From positions 1,116,001 to 1,180,000 of the forward strand of contig OY282455.1 of NCBI GenBank assembly GCA_958296195.1: a DNA stretch of 64,000 nt, in the 5' to 3' direction. The notes below the pieces were generated by a model. That model was not told the origin of the DNA, searched no databases, and saw only the letters and a list, made by a program, of their open reading frames with translations. The translations under genes were made by a program, and so were the position numbers. Of this stretch, positions 47,181 to 56,067 are shown piece after piece. Source of the DNA: an uncultured Pseudomonadales bacterium. GTDB lineage: Bacteria > Pseudomonadota > Gammaproteobacteria > Pseudomonadales > Azotimanducaceae. Position 1 is the stretch's first letter, and each line of letters opens with the position of its first letter.

Positions 47181-47208
47181 CTTGAAAATGAATAATTTCT
47201 CCCCACTG
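47181..47208 (+). promoter_or_regulatory. Sigma-32-like promoter on the plus strand
   Basis: CTTGAAA (47181-47187), a 13-nt spacer and CCCCACTG (47201-47208) closely match the heat-shock consensus. It points away from hsp20, into the methyltransferase remnant and the giant gene. CCCCACTGGGG here is also a palindrome. Confidence 0.4.
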
Positions 47209-47751
47209 GGGCAAGATTTTTTCCCGCAAGACCCTCTCTGCAGGCCAATCATCACCTGCTCGATCGGCTGCCGCGCCCATGCCTCCATGCCGCTATCCTC
47301 ACGCAATCTACGCCGCATCCGCCAATCCAGACCGGGCGGCTCTTGGAAGGACTGGGACGAATATCTCGTGAACCCCTGCCACACGGCCACCTACTATCCC
47401 GCGCCGTACGGCCGCCTGCGATGGGATGCGCCGGCACCGACCATCACCACGCAATTCTGCTACTACAGCACGGGGCGCTTCGGCCACCCGGAACAGGATC
47501 GCGCCATCTCCGTGCGCGAAGGCGCACTCCTGCAAACCTTCCCCGCTGACTACGATCTGATAGAGGGCGACGATCCCTTCCTCATATGCAACCTCGCCCG
47601 ACACATCGGCAAGCTCTCCCTGTTCTCAATCGCCAATAAATTCGCAGCGCCCAGCAAACCCCAAAACGCGACCCAAACGCCCACGGGTCCTTGGCGTCAG
47701 TTCGGACCACCGCCAAACGCCCTCCAACTCCACCCAGCAGATCCTTATTAG
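47182..47751 (+). pseudogene. C5 cytosine DNA methyltransferase, C-terminal remnant
   Basis: The conserved part runs from about 47290 to 47620 and reads LSSRNLRRIRQSRPGGS. It continues YGRLRWDAPAPTITTQF (motif IX neighbourhood), GRFGHPEQDRAISVREGALLQTFP and ARHIGK (start of motif X). These are the last ~110 residues of a Dcm-type methyltransferase. The catalytic PCQ loop, the ENV motif and the SAM-binding motifs are all missing upstream. Motif X fails after IGK (normally GNAVPV). No partner restriction gene is seen. This is a dead fragment. Confidence 0.75.
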
Positions 47752-47817
47752 GGGATTAGGCGGGTTGCTTTTGTGATTTCACTTCGCAGAATACGAGGCA
47801 TTGACGAGAAACGAACC

Positions 47818-50800
47818 ATGAAAATCCCAACCACAATCACTGCCCTTCTGTCGACGGGGCTCGCCTTTGCGCTTGCGCTCCTCGCGCATGCGGCGGCGGC
47901 CGAGCATTTCGTGCCGTTGTTCCCGGCGGCGGCGGACCCGGTCCGCCAAGGCTTCGTGCGGGTCATCAACCACTCTGGACGCTCAGGCGAGGTTCAGATC
48001 CGGGCGATGGATGACGAAGGAATCCGCTTCGGCCCGACGACGCTTTCCATCGACGCCAACCAGACGGTCCATTTCAATTCCACGGACCTCGAATACGGAA
48101 ACGCGGCGAAAGGCATGCCCAGAGGCATCGGGTCGGGTGCCGGCGATTGGTGGCTGACGGCCTCGAGCGGCCTCGACATAGAGGTTCTGTCCTATGTGCG
48201 CACCCCCGCGGACGGCTTCCTCACCTCAATGCACGACCTAGTGCGGGTGGATGAGAACGACCGCTACCGGGTGGCTGTGTTCAATCCGGCGGACAACCTC
48301 AACCAGCAGAGCCGGCTACGGATGATCAACGCGGGCGAGCAGGTGGCGAACCTGACAATTACGGGCATTGACGGACAGGGCGAATCTCCTGGCAGCTCGG
48401 TTCGGCTCTCCATCCCCTCTGGTGCCGTGGAAACGCTCGATGCCAAGGAATTGGAGTCAGGCAGCCCCAAGTTCCAAGGCGCACTTGGCGACGGCGCGAG
48501 CAAGTGGCAGCTAGTCGTCGAGTCGGACCAGCCGATCTTTGTGATGAGCCTGCTCTTGAGCCCGACGAGCCACCTGACGAATCTGTCGACCGCGCCGGCG
48601 AACGCTGACGAGGGTGCGCACACGGTGTCGATGTTCCCGGCGGCCTCCGATCCGCTTGAGCGGCAGGGTTTCGTTCGGGTCATCAACCACGCCGCAGAGT
48701 CCGGCGAGGTGTTCATCAACGCCTTTGACGACACCAATAGGGACTACCCCCGTTTGACGTTGAGTCTGGACTCTGACGAGACCGTGCATATCAACTCGGA
48801 CGACTTGGAGATGGGCAATGCGGCGAAGGGGCTCGTTGGCGGCACCGGCGCGGGCGAAGGCGACTGGCGCTTGGAGTTCTCCAGCGGCCTTGACATCGAG
48901 GTGCTGGCCTACATCCGCACCAAGCGCGACGGTTTCCTGACGTCGATGCACGACAGAGTGCCGCGGGAGGGGAAACGGCACCGGGTGCCGGTGTTCAACC
49001 CCGCCGCCAACGTCAACCAAGCGAGCAGACTGCGGCTGGTCAACGCCGGCGAGAATACCGCCGAAGTGGTGATCGCGGGCATTGACGACCGAGGTGCGCG
49101 GTCGACGGGCCGCGTGTCCGTGTCCGTTCCCGCGGGAACGTCGCGGACGCTGACTGCCTTGGAACTGGAGGCGGGCGGCGACGGATTCGAAGGCGAGCTG
49201 GGCGCTGGCGCGGGCAAGTGGCAGCTGGTCGTCGAGTCGGAGCAGCCGATCATCGTGATGAGCCTGCTGGCGAGCCCGACGGGTCACCTGACGAACCTGT
49301 CCACGGCGCCGGCGGTGGACTTCGCCCCGACCGACGCGGCCGTGTTCGACGACCGCTTCGTTGGCGGTCGCGTCGTCAAAGACGTTCCGACGAACTATGT
49401 GGATTTCCTCGCCGGGGGTCGCTTCCGGAAGACCGAAGGTGCCGAAATTGACAGTGGCGATCACACTTACACGCGCGTCGAACCGAACAAGGCGACCATC
49501 GTCTTGGACTACGACGATGGTGGCCGTTGCACCTACGAATTCAGGTTCCGCTCGCGCACGGCGGGCGATCTCAGCTACGACTGCGCCGACGACTCCGGCG
49601 AGTCGGGTTGGCACCTTGCTGAGACCCCATCGGCTGATGACAGTGGGGACGCCCACTGCCGACCGAACGACATCATTGATCCAGGCGAATCTTGCGACCT
49701 CTACGGCACCGGCTTCACCTTTGATGTCGAGTCGAGCGGCAGGTCTTGCCTGCGGGCCGGCGGGTTCATTAGCTGCTCGGGAAACCGGCAGAACTTGTCC
49801 AACTTGACCATCAACGGCGTTCGGATCACGTTGGTGGCGGCTCGCAACCAAGACAACAGTTGGACGATAGAAAATGTCGATCCCATACCCCCGGACAGCG
49901 CCGTCTCAGGACCGGACTTGGTCGTCTCGTCCGCCTCCGCCAGCGACAGCAGGCCGGCGCCGGGGGCATCGTTCAAGCTGACCGCCGTCGTTCGCAACAG
50001 GGGCACCGACACGTCTGCCGCCACCACCCTGCGCTACTACCGGTCGAACGACGCTAGGATATCCAGGACGGATACCGAGGTCGGTGCGCAGGCCGTCGCC
50101 GAACTCGCGGCCGCGGCGAGGCTCGACCGGTCGACCACCGTCACGGTGCCGGACGCGGGAACGTTCTACTACGGCGCCTGCGTCGACGCCGTCGCCGCGG
50201 AATCCGACACGGGGAACAACTGCTCTAGCGGCGTGCGGGTTTCTGTGGCGGGGGGCCGCACGACGGGAGGGGATTTCGACCTGGCTGGTGACAACAGAGC
50301 GCCCGACTGCATCGCCCACGCCAACGGGCGGTTCTATGTGTGCGACTCGTACGACGACAAGGTCTACGCCTACGCGACAAACGGCCAGCGCGACGCCGCC
50401 GCCGACCTCGACCTGGCTGGTGACAACGGCTTTCCCGTCGGCATCGCCCACGCCAACGGGCGGTTCCACGTTGTGGACACAATCGATGGCAAGGTCTACG
50501 CCTACGCGACAAACGGCCAGCGCGACGCCGCCGCCGACTTCGACCTGGCTGGTGACAACGACTCTCCCGCCGGCATCGCCCACGCCAACGGGCGGTTCTA
50601 CGTTGTGAACGCTTTCCCCCACAAGGTCTACGCCTATTGGGCCAATGGCCAGCGCGACGCCGCGGCCGACTTCGACTTGGCTGGTGACAACGGCTTTCCC
50701 GTCGGCATCGCCCACGCCAACGGGCGGTTCTACGTTGTGGACAATTCCGACGACAAGGTCTACGCCTACGCGACGAACGGCGAGCGCGACGCCGCCGCCG

Positions 50801-53800
50801 ACTTCGACCTAGATGGTGACAATAGTCAACCTCGGGGCATCGCCCACGCCAACGGGCTGTTCTACGTTGTGGACTGGAGCGACGAAAAAGTCTACAAAGT
50901 CTACGCCTACGATCTGGCGCACCCCCGCCCTGCAGGATCGGATCTGGTCGTCGCCTCCCCTTCGGTCAGCGATGCCACGCCGGATGTCGGGGCGGTCTTC
51001 CAGCTTCGCGCCACGGTCAGCAACCGCGGAAAATCCCGGTCCGCCGCGACGACATTGCGTTACTACCGCTCGGACGACGACACGATTTCTGTCGCCGACA
51101 GCGAAGTCGGTTCGGAGGCGGTCGATCCGCTCGACGCCGCCGGCACCAGGGAGTTCTCCATCGAGGTGACCGCGCCATCAAGTTCCGGCACACATTACTA
51201 CGGCGCCTGCGTCGATGCGGTATTTGGCGAATCCGCGAGCCGCAGCAACTGCTCTAGCGGCGTGCGGGTTTCTGTGGCGGGGGGCGTCACGACGGGAGGG
51301 GATTTCGACCTGGCCCGTGACAACGGCGCTCCCCAAGGCATCGCCCACGCCAACGGGCGGTTCTATGTGCCTGACCATACCGCCTACAAGGTCTACGCCT
51401 ACGCGACAAACGGCCAGCGCGACGCCGCCGCCGACTTCGACCTGGCTCGTGACAACGACCACCCATCCGGCATCGCCCACGCCAACGGGCGGTTCTACGT
51501 TGTGAACACTTTCGACAGCAAGGTCTACGCCTACGCGACAAACGGCGAACGCGACGCCGCCGCCGACTTCGACCTGGCTGGTGGCGGCTCCGGCATCGCC
51601 CACGCCAACGGGCGGTTCTATGTGGCTGACCGTACCGACGACAAGGTCTACGCCTATTGGGCCAATGGACAGCGCGACGCCGCGGCCGACTTCGATCTGG
51701 ATGGTGACAACGACTCCCCCTCCGGCATCGCCCACGCCAACGGGCGGTTCTACGTTGTGGACTGGTTCGACAGCAATGTCTACGCCTACGCGACAAACGG
51801 CGAGCGCGACGCCGCCGCCGACTTCGATCTGGATGGTGACAACGACTCCCCCTCCGGCATCGCCCACGCCAACGGGCGGTTCTACGTTGTGGACTGGAGC
51901 GACGACAAGGTCTACGCCTACAATCCGAATCCGGCAGGACCGGACTTGGTCGTCGCCTCCCCTTCCGTCAGCGATGCCACGCCGGATGTCGGGGCGGTCT
52001 TCCGGCTTCGCGCCACGGTCAGCAACCGCGGAAAATCCCGGTCCGCCGCGACGACATTGCGTTACTACCGCTCGGACGACGACACGATTTCTGTCGCCGA
52101 CAGCGCGGTCGGCTCGGAGGCGGTCGATGCGCTCGACGCCGCCGGCGCCAGGGAGTTCTCCATCGAGGTGACCGCGCCATCGAGTTCCGGCACACATTAC
52201 TACGGCGCCTGCGTCGACTCCGTTCGTGGCGAGACGGACGTGGCGAACAACTGTTCGACGGCGGTAATGGTCACGGTCGGCGGTGGCGGTTCGGGTGCGC
52301 CGGACCTGGTGGTGGAATCGCCCTCGGTCAGCGACGCGGAACCCGACGCCGGCGCGTCCTTTGCGCTGTCGGTGGTCGTCCGCAATCAAGGCGATGGCCG
52401 CTCCTCCAGCACGATGCTGCGCTACTACCGCTCGAACGACGCCGGGATATCCAGGACGGATACCGAGGTCAGTGCGCAGGCCGTCGCCGAACTCGCGGCC
52501 GCGGCGAGGCTCGACCGGTCGACCACCGTCACGGCGGCGGACGCGGGAACGTTCTACTACGGCGCCTGCGTCGACGCCGTTCGTGGCGAGACGGACGTGG
52601 CGAACAACTGTTCGACGGCGGTAATGGTCACGGTCGGCGGTGGCGTTTCGGCCGCGCCGGACCTGGTGGTGGAATCACCCTCGGTCAGCGATGCGGAACC
52701 CGACGCCGGCGCGTCCTTTGCGCTGTCGGTGGTCGTCCGCAATCAAGGCGATGGCCGCTCCTCCAGCACGATGCTGCGCTACTACCGCTCGAACGACGCC
52801 GGGATATCCAGGACGGATACCGAGGTCGGTGCGCAGGCCGTCGCCGAACTCGCGGCCGCGGCGAGGCTCGACCGGTCGACCACCGTCACGGCGGCGGACG
52901 CGGGAACGTTCTACTACGGCGCCTGCGTCGACGCCGTTCGTGGCGAGACGGACGTGGCGAACAACTGTTCGACAGCGGTAATGGTCACGGTCGGCGGTGG
53001 CGGTTCGGGTGCGCCGGACCTGGTGGTGGAATCGCCCTCGGTCAGCGACGCGGAACCCGACGCCGGCGCGTCCTTTGCGCTGTCGGTGGTCGTCCGCAAT
53101 CAAGGCGATGGCCGCTCCTCCAGCACGATGCTGCGCTACTACCGCTCGAACGACGCCGGGATATCCAGGACGGATACCGAGGTCGGTGCGCAGGCCGTCG
53201 CCGAACTCGCGGCCGCGGCGAGGCTCGACCGGTCGACCACCGTCACGGCGGCGGACGCGGGAACGTTCTACTACGGCGCCTGCGTCGACGCCGTTCGTGG
53301 CGAGACGGACGTGGCGAACAACTGTTCGACGGCGGTAATGGTCACGGTCGGCGGTGGCGTTTCGGCCGCGCCGGACCTGGTGGTGGAATCACCCTCGGTC
53401 AGCGATGCGGAACCCGACGCCGGCGCGTCCTTTGCGCTGTCGGTGGTCGTCCGCAATCAAGGCGATGGCCGCTCCTCCAGCACGATGCTGCGCTACTACC
53501 GCTCGAACGACGCCGGGATATCCAGGACGGATACCGAGGTCGGTGCGCAGGCCGTCGCCGAACTCGCGGCCGCGGCGAGGCTCGACCGGTCGACCACCGT
53601 CACGGCGGCGGACGCGGGAACGTTCTACTACGGCGCCTGCGTCGACGCCGTCGCCGCGGAATCCGATACGGGGAACAACTGCTCTAGCGGCGTGCGGGTT
53701 TCTGTGGCGGAGGGCGGCACAACGGGAGGGGGGGATTTCTACCTAGCTGGTGACAACGGCTCTCCCGCCGGCATCGCCCACGCCAACGGGCGGTTCTATG

Positions 53801-56067
53801 TGGTTGACCGTGGCGACGACAAGGTCTACGCGTACCGGACCAACGGGCAACGCGACGATGGTGCCGACTTCGATCTGGCTGGTGACAATAGCTCCCCCCA
53901 CGGCATCGCCCACGCCAACGGACGGTTCTACGTTGTGGACAATTCCGACGACAAGGTCTACGCCTACGCGACAAACGGCCAGCGCGACGCCGCCGCCGAT
54001 TTCGATCTGGATGGCCACAACAGCTATCCTTACATGGCCCACGCCAACGGGCGGTTCTACATTTCGGACTATTCCGACGACAAGGTCTACGCCTATGCGA
54101 CAAACGGCCAGCGCGACGCCGCCGCCGACTTCGACCTGGCTGGTGACAACGGCTCTCCCACCGGCATCGCCCACGCCAACGGGCTGTTCTACGTTGTGGA
54201 CTGGGGCGACGACAAGGTCTACGCCTACGCGACAAACGGCCAGCGCGACGCCGCCGCCGACTTCGACCTGGCTGGTGACAACGGCTCTCCCGCCGGCATC
54301 GCCCACGCCAACGGATGGTTCTACGTTGTGGACGATTCCGACGACAAGGGCTACGCCTACAATCCGAATCCGGCAGGACCGGACTTGGTCGTCGCCTCCC
54401 CTTCGGTCAGCGATGCCACGCCGGATATTGGGGCGGTCTTCCAGCTTCGCGCCACGGTCAGCAACCGCGGAAAATCCCGGTCCGCCGCGACGACATTGCG
54501 TTACTACCGCTCGGACGATAGCACGATTTCTGTCGCCGACAGCGAAGTCGGCTCGGAGGCGGTCGGTGCGCTCGACGCCGCCGGTGCCAGGGAGTTCTCC
54601 ATCGAGGTGACCGCGCCATCGGTCGTCGGCACCTATTACTACGGCGCGTGCACGGACTCGGTTGCCGGGGAGCCCACCGGTCAGAACAACTGCTCACCGG
54701 GGGTTCGCGTACGCGTGGGCGAGGGGTTTAATCTCGCTGGCGACAATAGCGACGCCCTCGGCATCGCCTACGCCAACGGGCGGTTCTACGTTGTGGACCG
54801 GACCGACGACAAGGTCTACGCCTACGCGACAAACGGCCAGCGCGACGCCGCTGCCGATTTCGATCTGGATGGTGACAACGGCCACGCCAACGGCATCACC
54901 CACGCCAACAGGCGGTTCTACGTTGTGGACCGGACCGACGACAAGGTCTACGCCTACGCGACAAACGGCCAGCGCGACGCCGCGGCCGACTTCGACCTGG
55001 CTGGTGACAACGGCTACGCCACCGGCATCGCCTACGCCACCGGACGGTTCTATGTGGTTGACTCTACCGACAGCAAGGTCTACGCCTACGCGACAAACGG
55101 CCAGCGCGACGCCGCGGCCGACTTCGACCTGGCTGGTGACAACGGCTACGCCACCGGCATCGCCTACGCCACCGGACGGTTCTATGTGGTTGACTCTACC
55201 GACGGCAAGGTCTACGCCTATTGGGCCAATGGACAGCGCGACGCCGCGGCCGACTTCGATCTGGAGGGTGACAACCGCTACCCCACCGGCATCGCCCACG
55301 CCAATGTCATGTTGTACGTGATCGACAGTTCCGACGAGGGGGTGTACGCGTATTCCCCGCCACCCGATTCCGACGGCCCGGACTTGGTCGTGCAGTCTCC
55401 CTCAACGAGCGAGGGCGCACCGGAAGCGGGCGAGTCCTTCACCTTCAGCGCCACCGTCCGCAACCGCGGCAACCGCCAATCGCCGGCTGCGACGCTGCGC
55501 TACTTCCGCTCCACGGACGCCGCGATATCGCCGGACGACACGGAACTGGGTTCCGATTCGCTAGGCGGGCTTTCGGCCTCGGCCTCGCGGAATCGTTCGG
55601 TCAGCTTGACCGCACCCGACCAGGAGGGCTGCTACTTCTGCGGCGCATGTGTTGACACCGTCGAAGGCGAAAGCTCCACCGCGAACAACTGCTCCCGCGC
55701 TGTCGAGATCCTAGTGGGAGAACGGCCGGATCTGGCTGTGACGCGCGCCGTTCTTCACTACCCGTACTATGGTCGCATCGGTGAATCGATTTCCATGACC
55801 GTAGACGTGACGAATGAAGGCGCAAGCATCTCGAGACCCGCAAAGTTGAGGTTCTCCAATGGCACCGAGGTCGAGATTCCGTCGCTGGCGCCAAACGAGA
55901 CCACGACCGTCGAGGGACACACGGTGGGTTCGGTCCAGCTAGGGACGAGCACATATACGGCATGTATTGCTGACGTGCCTTGCGAGCAGGAAACCACGAA
56001 CAACTGCGAGTCCAAGTCGGTCACCTATGCGAGTCCAAGTCGGTCACCTATGACTAGGGCGCGTTGA
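47818..56067 (+). CDS. Giant secreted CARDB / propeller-repeat protein
   Basis: A 2749-residue exported protein. Residues 1-28 are a signal peptide (cut after AHAAAA). 29-261 and 267-499 are two copies of an unnamed 233-residue domain; 500-698 is a Cys-containing unique part. Ten CARDB-like domains begin near 699, 1041, 1375, 1495, 1614, 1733, 1852, 2188, 2521 and 2637. Most carry LRYYRS, YYGACVD and NNCS, whose two cysteines may bond. Four cassettes at 819, 1162, 1973 and 2304 each hold five repeats of the type GIAHANGRFYVVD...DKVYAYATNGQRDAAADFDL. The start is ATG 47818; GTG 47773 lacks a signal sequence. No membrane anchor or known secretion tail is seen. The last 12 residues are read in a shifted frame after a 23-bp duplication. 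Probably a surface or matrix adhesin (inference). Confidence 0.85.
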   Translation: MKIPTTITALLSTGLAFALALLAHAAAAEHFVPLFPAAADPVRQGFVRVINHSGRSGEVQIRAMDDEGIRFGPTTLSIDANQTVHFNSTDLEYGNAAKGMPRGIGSGAGDWWLTASSGLDIEVLSYVRTPADGFLTSMHDLVRVDENDRYRVAVFNPADNLNQQSRLRMINAGEQVANLTITGIDGQGESPGSSVRLSIPSGAVETLDAKELESGSPKFQGALGDGASKWQLVVESDQPIFVMSLLLSPTSHLTNLSTAPANADEGAHTVSMFPAASDPLERQGFVRVINHAAESGEVFINAFDDTNRDYPRLTLSLDSDETVHINSDDLEMGNAAKGLVGGTGAGEGDWRLEFSSGLDIEVLAYIRTKRDGFLTSMHDRVPREGKRHRVPVFNPAANVNQASRLRLVNAGENTAEVVIAGIDDRGARSTGRVSVSVPAGTSRTLTALELEAGGDGFEGELGAGAGKWQLVVESEQPIIVMSLLASPTGHLTNLSTAPAVDFAPTDAAVFDDRFVGGRVVKDVPTNYVDFLAGGRFRKTEGAEIDSGDHTYTRVEPNKATIVLDYDDGGRCTYEFRFRSRTAGDLSYDCADDSGESGWHLAETPSADDSGDAHCRPNDIIDPGESCDLYGTGFTFDVESSGRSCLRAGGFISCSGNRQNLSNLTINGVRITLVAARNQDNSWTIENVDPIPPDSAVSGPDLVVSSASASDSRPAPGASFKLTAVVRNRGTDTSAATTLRYYRSNDARISRTDTEVGAQAVAELAAAARLDRSTTVTVPDAGTFYYGACVDAVAAESDTGNNCSSGVRVSVAGGRTTGGDFDLAGDNRAPDCIAHANGRFYVCDSYDDKVYAYATNGQRDAAADLDLAGDNGFPVGIAHANGRFHVVDTIDGKVYAYATNGQRDAAADFDLAGDNDSPAGIAHANGRFYVVNAFPHKVYAYWANGQRDAAADFDLAGDNGFPVGIAHANGRFYVVDNSDDKVYAYATNGERDAAADFDLDGDNSQPRGIAHANGLFYVVDWSDEKVYKVYAYDLAHPRPAGSDLVVASPSVSDATPDVGAVFQLRATVSNRGKSRSAATTLRYYRSDDDTISVADSEVGSEAVDPLDAAGTREFSIEVTAPSSSGTHYYGACVDAVFGESASRSNCSSGVRVSVAGGVTTGGDFDLARDNGAPQGIAHANGRFYVPDHTAYKVYAYATNGQRDAAADFDLARDNDHPSGIAHANGRFYVVNTFDSKVYAYATNGERDAAADFDLAGGGSGIAHANGRFYVADRTDDKVYAYWANGQRDAAADFDLDGDNDSPSGIAHANGRFYVVDWFDSNVYAYATNGERDAAADFDLDGDNDSPSGIAHANGRFYVVDWSDDKVYAYNPNPAGPDLVVASPSVSDATPDVGAVFRLRATVSNRGKSRSAATTLRYYRSDDDTISVADSAVGSEAVDALDAAGAREFSIEVTAPSSSGTHYYGACVDSVRGETDVANNCSTAVMVTVGGGGSGAPDLVVESPSVSDAEPDAGASFALSVVVRNQGDGRSSSTMLRYYRSNDAGISRTDTEVSAQAVAELAAAARLDRSTTVTAADAGTFYYGACVDAVRGETDVANNCSTAVMVTVGGGVSAAPDLVVESPSVSDAEPDAGASFALSVVVRNQGDGRSSSTMLRYYRSNDAGISRTDTEVGAQAVAELAAAARLDRSTTVTAADAGTFYYGACVDAVRGETDVANNCSTAVMVTVGGGGSGAPDLVVESPSVSDAEPDAGASFALSVVVRNQGDGRSSSTMLRYYRSNDAGISRTDTEVGAQAVAELAAAARLDRSTTVTAADAGTFYYGACVDAVRGETDVANNCSTAVMVTVGGGVSAAPDLVVESPSVSDAEPDAGASFALSVVVRNQGDGRSSSTMLRYYRSNDAGISRTDTEVGAQAVAELAAAARLDRSTTVTAADAGTFYYGACVDAVAAESDTGNNCSSGVRVSVAEGGTTGGGDFYLAGDNGSPAGIAHANGRFYVVDRGDDKVYAYRTNGQRDDGADFDLAGDNSSPHGIAHANGRFYVVDNSDDKVYAYATNGQRDAAADFDLDGHNSYPYMAHANGRFYISDYSDDKVYAYATNGQRDAAADFDLAGDNGSPTGIAHANGLFYVVDWGDDKVYAYATNGQRDAAADFDLAGDNGSPAGIAHANGWFYVVDDSDDKGYAYNPNPAGPDLVVASPSVSDATPDIGAVFQLRATVSNRGKSRSAATTLRYYRSDDSTISVADSEVGSEAVGALDAAGAREFSIEVTAPSVVGTYYYGACTDSVAGEPTGQNNCSPGVRVRVGEGFNLAGDNSDALGIAYANGRFYVVDRTDDKVYAYATNGQRDAAADFDLDGDNGHANGITHANRRFYVVDRTDDKVYAYATNGQRDAAADFDLAGDNGYATGIAYATGRFYVVDSTDSKVYAYATNGQRDAAADFDLAGDNGYATGIAYATGRFYVVDSTDGKVYAYWANGQRDAAADFDLEGDNRYPTGIAHANVMLYVIDSSDEGVYAYSPPPDSDGPDLVVQSPSTSEGAPEAGESFTFSATVRNRGNRQSPAATLRYFRSTDAAISPDDTELGSDSLGGLSASASRNRSVSLTAPDQEGCYFCGACVDTVEGESSTANNCSRAVEILVGERPDLAVTRAVLHYPYYGRIGESISMTVDVTNEGASISRPAKLRFSNGTEVEIPSLAPNETTTVEGHTVGSVQLGTSTYTACIADVPCEQETTNNCESKSVTYASPSRSPMTRAR
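47902..49314 (+). repeat. Tandem duplication encoding two 233-residue N-terminal domains
   Basis: Copies run 47902-48600 and 48616-49314, each 699 bp, separated by 15 bp. Both encode FPAA-DP-RQGFVRVINH, GNAAKG, DIEVL-Y-RT-DGFLTSMHD, the W-L-V-ES-QPI-VMSLL core and -LTNLSTAPA. The DNA has diverged well beyond the later 357-bp repeats, so this is an older duplication. Confidence 0.85.
50272..50937 (+). repeat. Propeller-like cassette A (five repeats)
   Basis: Five consecutive units of about 132 bp (44 residues) built on DLAGDN..P.GIAHANGRFYVVD...DKVYAYATNGQRDAA. The last unit is altered at its end (VYKVYAYDLAHPRPAG), where it joins CARDB 2. Confidence 0.85.
51301..51939 (+). repeat. Propeller-like cassette B (five repeats)
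   Basis: Five units of the same type as cassette A. The third has lost three residues (DLAGGGSGIAHANG in place of DLAGDN..P.GIAHANG). The fifth ends in YNPNPAG before CARDB 3. Confidence 0.85.
52300..53727 (+). repeat. Four near-identical 357-bp tandem CARDB units
   Basis: Units start at 52300, 52657, 53014 and 53371 and differ at only a few positions; for example the first encodes EVSAQ where the others have EVGAQ. Linkers alternate GGGGSGA, GGGVSAA, GGGGSGA, GGGVSAA going into units 1-4, which marks a 714-bp higher-order repeat. Unit 4 ends with the DAVAAESDTGNNC sequence of CARDB 1 in place of DAVRGETDVANNC. Confidence 0.92.
53734..54378 (+). repeat. Propeller-like cassette C (five repeats)
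   Basis: Five units of the shared 44-residue type. The third is degenerate (DLDGHNSYPYMAHANGRFYI), and the fifth (GWFYVVDDSDDKGYAYNPNPAG) leads into CARDB 8. Confidence 0.85.
54727..55374 (+). repeat. Propeller-like cassette D (five repeats)
   Basis: Five units. Units three and four are near-identical copies of each other (GYATGIAYATGRFYVVDSTD), a recent local duplication. The fifth is the most diverged (GIAHANVMLYVIDSSDEGVYAY). Confidence 0.85.
56006..56051 (+). repeat. 23-bp tandem duplication at the 3' end of the giant gene
   Basis: Two perfect 23-bp copies (56006-56028 and 56029-56051) are followed by GACTAG. With one copy the frame would read CESKSVTYD and stop at TAG 56055-56057. Because 23 is not a multiple of three, the second copy shifts the frame, which now reads on to TGA 56065. 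Confidence 0.9.

Follow-up and report, generated by a model that had tools for sequence, protein, structure and literature searches.

A predicted secreted protein of 2,749 residues with CARDB domains and five-blade NHL-like propeller cassettes in an uncultured Pseudomonadales bacterium

A gene in a 64,000-nucleotide stretch of contig OY282455.1 (the whole stretch analysed, hereafter the window), from an uncultured bacterium of the Azotimanducaceae, was found to encode a giant protein in which CARDB domains are interspersed with four repeat cassettes, each of exactly five 44-residue blades (20 blades in all). The strongest new points are the five-blade count and a pattern of variable codons within the blades, while the function, proposed here as that of an exported binding protein, is one that we infer.

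Results

Gene and domain organisation

The frame is open from 47773 to 56067 (+ strand) and, with an ATG at 47818, encodes a protein of 2,749 amino acids. Base shuffling of the window (30 copies) gave no open frame longer than 397 codons, so the length of this frame is not due to chance. A perfect 23-bp tandem duplication lies in its last codons (56005-56052, +) and alters the reading of the final dozen residues.

A preliminary description of this DNA, made from the letters alone, had proposed a single frame of 2,749 residues with a signal peptide, two 233-residue N-terminal domains, ten CARDB-like domains and four cassettes of short repeats, and each of these elements was recovered. The frame was open throughout from the ATG at 47818, a typical signal peptide was visible by eye (residues 1-28; 47818-47901) and the N-terminal modules were located at residues 29-262 (47902-48603) and 267-500 (48616-49317). 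With module models, these were found to be followed by a module of approximately 100 residues (508-606; 49339-49635), which recurs in relatives and had no Pfam match, and by a cysteine-containing module of approximately 90 residues (607-695; 49636-49902), to which a region of the gammaproteobacterial locus L043 is similar. The remainder of the protein follows the order C-P-C-P-C-C-C-C-C-P-C-P-C-C, where C is a CARDB domain and P a cassette. The strict alternation of the two that had also been described was thus not found, as five CARDB domains stand consecutively in the middle of the protein; otherwise the earlier layout was sound, though it lacked the two small modules, the fixed blade number and the variable-codon pattern.

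The whole-protein Pfam scan matched 12 families, including DUF11 (53.8 bits, over cut-off); the tachylectin family, for which Pfam includes a model, was absent from these 12. A single repeat model, TIGR01451, was barely above cut-off in the NCBIfam scan (26.2 against 24). There was no model in either scan spanning the combination of CARDB domains and five-blade cassettes, nor was the architecture described in titles or abstracts among the literature matches listed. The earlier description had known of no named family with strict alternation of this kind; the protein is nevertheless not unique, since the plan is complete in five relatives (see below).

CARDB domains

Pfam matched CARDB (PF07705) at 294 bits against a cut-off of 22.7, over ten stretches. 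Both Pfam and the module model placed CARDB 1 (49915-50253), CARDB 2 (50941-51282), CARDB 3 (51943-52284), CARDB 8 (54382-54723), CARDB 9 (55381-55722) and the divergent, C-terminal CARDB 10 (55729-56031), all on the + strand; CARDB 8 and 9 were also modelled with AlphaFold2. When compared with known structures using Foldseek, the CARDB model matched 3idu (TMt 0.80), so that membership of the family is indicated both by a profile score above cut-off and by an Ig-like sandwich.

Four of the five consecutive domains (CARDB 4-7; 52303-53712, +) form a 357-bp tandem array, as seen by repeat comparison and the module model. A single base in 357 separates two units of the array; the third unit has 6-7 differences from both, and the fourth 40-43. 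Cysteine pairs 14 residues apart were observed in nine of the ten CARDB domains, which would fit an oxidising, extracytoplasmic location.

Blade number and fold of the cassettes

The blade profile located cassettes 1 (residues 819-1031; 50272-50910), 2 (1162-1371; 51301-51930), 3 (1973-2184; 53734-54369) and 4 (2303-2514; 54724-55359), all on the + strand. This profile was built from 14 window blades with one extension, in which matches from seven frames were added, five stretches of L048 among them, and was applied to all fetched frames; L085 (same contig as L044) was left out and L093 fell below threshold. Blade totals were a multiple of five in 19 of 22 frames, with 29 runs of five, one of ten (L046) and one of fifteen (L044). 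The exceptions were L097, with nine blades (ten at a looser threshold), and the frames of L098, with six and four, which look like one 2x5 protein broken across two frames. L048 was rejected as a relative, its repeats departing from the blade model, and because its stretches had entered the extended profile the count was repeated with a window-only profile. This gave a multiple of five in 18 of the 22, L044 and L083 each losing one blade and the first frame of L098 giving five. In reading these totals it should be borne in mind that L043, L044, L087 and L095 run past contig ends, and that the search for relatives relied on a five-blade profile, which may bias it towards proteins of five or more blades and would not exclude six or seven.

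The preliminary description had called for structure prediction of a cassette with its flanking CARDB domains. Using 13 sequences from the window and the relatives' loci, AlphaFold2 returned a confident model of such a CARDB-cassette-CARDB unit (cassette 4 with CARDB 8 and 9; mean pLDDT 88.9), in which both the propeller and the CARDB folds were matched to known structures; the pTM of 0.67 leaves the placement of the domains relative to one another uncertain. The best Foldseek match to the propeller was the NHL domain of TRIM71 (8j72; E 4.7e-12, TMt 0.57), and TMt values of 0.70 and 0.71, which partly reflect the length of these five-bladed targets, were obtained with the glutaminyl cyclase 3nol and its relative 3mbr. 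3nol is called five-bladed in PMC7948796.

At the level of sequence, the NHL family (PF01436) reached 35 bits summed over the whole protein against a cut-off of 20, with no single stretch passing, and in the Pfam scan at E 0.001 NHL was unlisted for the cassette frames of L059, L083, L091 and L087. The best sequence match in the PDB was TRIM3 (E 2.6e-7). Counting against five-bladed heads, a six-bladed model, DUF5128, was also above its Pfam cut-off (31.8 against 22.9). Solved NHL domains form a ring of six blades, whereas five per cassette were found in the window and in nearly all relatives. The structure model and the fold search support, short of proof, a predicted NHL-like five-bladed propeller between CARDB domains, with five-fold closure as the presumed form of the ring.

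Relationships among the blades

Each of the 20 window blades found its best match inside its own protein, compared to 0-4 blades per protein in 17 others with at least five blades, and mean blade identity was 0.74 in the window (20 blades) against 0.29-0.60 in the other proteins. Tree building placed 19 of these 20 in one group consisting of window blades only. Duplication of whole cassettes was considered as the source of the four propellers and was not supported: blades of the same index in different cassettes were as similar (0.809) as those of different index (0.808; permutation P = 0.35). The blades have probably been amplified or homogenised singly and recently, to judge from these sequence comparisons, and the retention of five at each amplification would most simply be explained by closure of the fold.

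Variable blade codons

Six blade positions (9, 10, 12, 26, 27 and 29) carried different residues in 70-92% of pairwise blade comparisons, where synonymous differences were rare (18 blades, the two with indels being dropped). Uncorrected pN/pS, calculated from the 14 full-length inner blades (four terminal blades and two with indels, 6 of the 20, being dropped), reached 2.09 for the six codons (5-95% range of a bootstrap over blades, 1.74-2.68) against 0.28 for the remaining 38, values which derive from related repeats in one gene rather than from independent sequences. As the six codons were picked after inspection, a cross-check was performed in which the six most variable codons were chosen on cassettes 1-2 and tested on cassettes 3-4, and the reverse; pN/pS was 1.46 compared to 0.24 for the remaining codons in one direction and 1.87 compared to 0.38 in the other. 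Positions 10, 12, 26, 27 and 29 were chosen in both sets, position 9 in neither, and 24 and 35 once each.

In the AlphaFold2 model, strands A, B and C of the blade occupy positions 11-17, 20-25 and 30-35. The six positions are at the start of A, the end of B and the start of C, and would therefore lie on one edge of the sheet and one face of the ring. Propellers usually bind their ligands on this face. Not all of the variability falls at this edge, as positions 24 (in strand B) and 35 (at the far end of strand C) are off it; the loops of the opposite edge are much less variable (16-19 and the greater part of 36-44). Position by position, variability in the 20 window blades correlated with that in other proteins (Spearman 0.75; 145 of 174 other blades, excluding those of L044, L046 and L047).

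Six pairs of related proteins were also compared between species, codon by codon, and pN/pS was 0.57-0.97 at the variable sites, 0.20-0.48 at other blade codons and 0.40-0.57 in the rest of the protein. The variable sites evolve faster, yet with a ratio below 1 between species, a result which relaxed constraint would fit too. Within the gene, the pattern suggests diversifying selection at the six codons.

N-terminal and small modules

When residues 29-511 were scanned alone, DUF5719 (PF18986) was matched at 33.2 bits (cut-off 26.2) with partial coverage of the profile; it was unlisted for the whole protein, a genome search with it gave three matches of which the window protein was not one, and the literature search returned no match for DUF5719. 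The match is weak. The N-terminal module itself matched 20 stretches of its own genome, that of the window included, some being pieces of one gene. They occur alone or beside leucine-rich repeats, a papain-like peptidase (L055) or a trypsin-like peptidase (L056), and the module looks like one that exported proteins have in common, not like a component of a binding head.

An AlphaFold2 model of the second N-terminal module with the small modules had a mean pLDDT of 58 and was usable for the N-terminal module only (46-91 over 10-residue blocks); Foldseek returned nothing at E <= 0.001 for it. Outside this threshold, stretches of approximately 100 residues resembled the Anabaena sensory rhodopsin transducer (TMt 0.61-0.81, E 0.011-0.019), which is noted as a lead.

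Other arrangements of this module were observed as well. At L050 (G000:C1:3308000-3327900) and L049, an N-terminal-module protein is present in three near-alike copies inside 20 kb, two of them interrupted, with another copy far off. At L055 (3127-7064, -), the papain-like peptidase carries CARDB and the same N-terminal modules precede it in another frame, possibly as a split gene.

Export and gene neighbourhood

No membrane anchor or sorting tail was seen in the sequence, as had been noted previously, and the mode of export had been left as a question. A search of the genome for the type II secretin matched the GspD model at 491.9 bits (NCBI cut-off 351). This makes the question slightly less open, although nothing ties the secretin to the protein, which would be exported past the inner membrane, perhaps by a type II system.

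By Pfam, the neighbouring genes encode HSP20, TPMT, gamma-glutamyltranspeptidase, a citrate-transporter-like protein and a methyltransferase fragment, while aconitase was read from its translation; none of the five scanned neighbours could be recognised as a partner. The methyltransferase frame, directly upstream (47185-47748, +), matches C5 DNA methyltransferases over their C-terminal part alone (PF00145 positions 247-298; 21.3 bits, cut-off 22) and is probably a gene remnant. In the genus g58, loci L084, L086 and L088 have neighbours in common, including an acyl-CoA dehydrogenase and a DUF3667 protein. Conserved partner genes were rejected, the five scanned neighbours in the window belonging to families other than those two.

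Relatives and distribution

The preliminary description had proposed searching for the same architecture elsewhere. Among 206 genomes of the family, 21 were matched at E <= 0.001, a count that includes the own genome and several weak matches. Its own genus contributed 2 of its 9 genomes and g58 contributed 12, while the other 7 were spread over four further genera. One of the eight other genomes of its own genus therefore has a cassette, and the protein is dispensable there. In g58, which belongs to the same family, the full order module-module-small module-P-C-P is present in five proteins (L084, L086, L088, L089 and L090), three of which add a further C, and a sixth (L095) stops at its contig end within the first P; pairwise identities among the g58 proteins sharing this plan, from six genomes, were 52-82%. 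The plan recurs in part in a Holophagales MAG (L045; P-CCCC-CC-P) and in the gammaproteobacterial MAG at L043 (cysteine module-P-C). The SB06xx MAGs are presumably from sponges.

Across the class, 74 of 369 sampled genomes, own included, matched the cassette profile at E <= 0.001 (at most 8 candidates per genome scored). The best match outside the own genome scored 50.6 bits against approximately 332 for the own cassettes, so a wide spread at class level was rejected and these matches were taken as ordinary propellers; with a narrower profile, many relatives in the family scored 190-250 bits. A viral origin was likewise rejected, as none of the 85 pattern matches found when viral contigs were scanned was a relative.

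Other arrangements of the same modules were also seen. The relative at L046 (5814-10097) has 10 blades between two N-terminal modules, and the start of its frame is what we take to be a sugar-dehydrogenase-like region. The g58 proteins at L083 and L091 (2,471 and 2,128 residues) have a similar plan, but their long C-terminal regions are matched by Pfam little or not at all, and they carry the ~100-residue module a second time.

Discussion

Each part of this protein has counterparts among known systems. It resembles NHL-repeat propellers (PF01436; the TRIM-NHL proteins, PknD and the designed Pizza) in its summed profile match and its TRIM3 and TRIM71 matches, but has five blades where those have six, as in the six-bladed NHL propeller PknD (PMC6805158), and repeats its cassettes among CARDB domains. 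With CARDB surface proteins (PF07705; PF1109 of Pyrococcus) it shares CARDB itself, seen here as ten stretches with a structural match to 3idu and termed cell-adhesion related in PMC8416519; here these domains are irregularly interleaved with five-blade cassettes. Highly repetitive beta-propellers were already known (Pereira and Lupas 2022, PMC9218822), and the window blades, apparently amplified singly like those, exceed on average the 60% pairwise identity given in that paper. The propellers described there form a continuum of blade numbers biased to the family median, whereas five is retained here across genera and in separate cassettes; the text makes no mention of NHL.

The five-bladed lectin Tachylectin-2, a binder of N-acetyl sugars, is alike in having five similar blades and differs in that four cassettes are present per chain here; Tachylectin-2 was placed near the VCBS propeller group in PMC9218822. 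A coral homologue of Tachylectin-2 was reported to show allelic variation and signs of positive selection, the selected sites lacking spatial clustering (PMC2880987). The receptor-binding protein of phage phi11 contains a five-bladed propeller with 3NOL as its best structural match and a cavity that could take GlcNAc (PMC4901313); this trimeric phage tail protein has another domain plan.

On balance, the probable role of the protein is that of an exported, multivalent, lectin- or adhesin-like binding protein with CARDB spacers and putative ligand-binding heads. The four small, closed, five-bladed NHL-like propellers would be the heads, each of which could present up to 30 variable residues on one face with a conserved scaffold beneath, and the Ig-like CARDB domains would space them along the chain. 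The N-terminal modules would probably serve a common task, for example surface association or assembly. Their ligands might be sugars or cell surfaces. It is presumed throughout that the ring closes at five blades, that its variable face binds the ligand and that the arrangement exists for the sake of multivalency. The notion of CARDB spacers and multivalent propellers, put forward in the preliminary description, agrees with the domain searches, the predicted fold and the distribution of variable codons, while "sensor-like", as the propellers had been termed, found no support.

A structural matrix or surface-layer-like spacer, with propellers and CARDB domains as stable bulk modules and the variable positions drifting in tolerant surface loops, would account for the ratios below 1 at variable sites between species and for CARDB units that grow by simple duplication, 1 of 357 bases apart, and drift is to be expected in exposed loops. 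The ratio of 2.1 at the named sites within the gene, the 1.5-1.9 at codons chosen on one half and measured on the other, and the much lower variability of the opposite-edge loops (16-19 and most of 36-44) argue against it, and we consider such a role unlikely. Slightly less probable still, and offered tentatively, is an extension of the binding reading: a diversity-generating recognition array, in which recombination inside the gene would spread and homogenise the 132-bp blade units while selection would keep some six codons per blade diverse, an arrangement analogous to fungal repeat receptors or variable lectins. If true, one chain would show four different five-bladed faces and its specificity would be quickly changeable.

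A role as an enzyme or carrier, in which a substrate would be bound or converted by the propellers or the N-terminal modules in the manner of the five-bladed bacterial glutaminyl cyclases, appears improbable: no catalytic family was recognised in the protein by the Pfam, NCBIfam and N-terminal region scans, and near-identical blades would leave scant room for one unique active site, even though those cyclases are among the nearest folds, proteins of the same genome with N-terminal modules carry peptidases (papain-like in L055, trypsin-like in L056) and L046 presumably begins with its sugar-dehydrogenase-like region. Least credible of all is that the repeats or their number are an artefact of assembly. 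The 357-bp CARDB copies, identical at up to 356 of 357 bases, are hard for short-read assembly, but the genome is a single 4.31 Mb contig, the window blades differ in their codons, no stop codon interrupts the frame, and both the plan and the number of blades recur in relatives from other assemblies.

The binding protein favoured here would represent a candidate class of adhesin or lectin in uncultured bacteria, and its five-blade count and variable edge lead directly to predictions about structure and binding. Its cassettes provide a natural NHL-like propeller that retains five blades across genera, with blade differences in the window gene mostly at few positions, and may serve as a test case for the rise of new propellers and binding sites through blade amplification.
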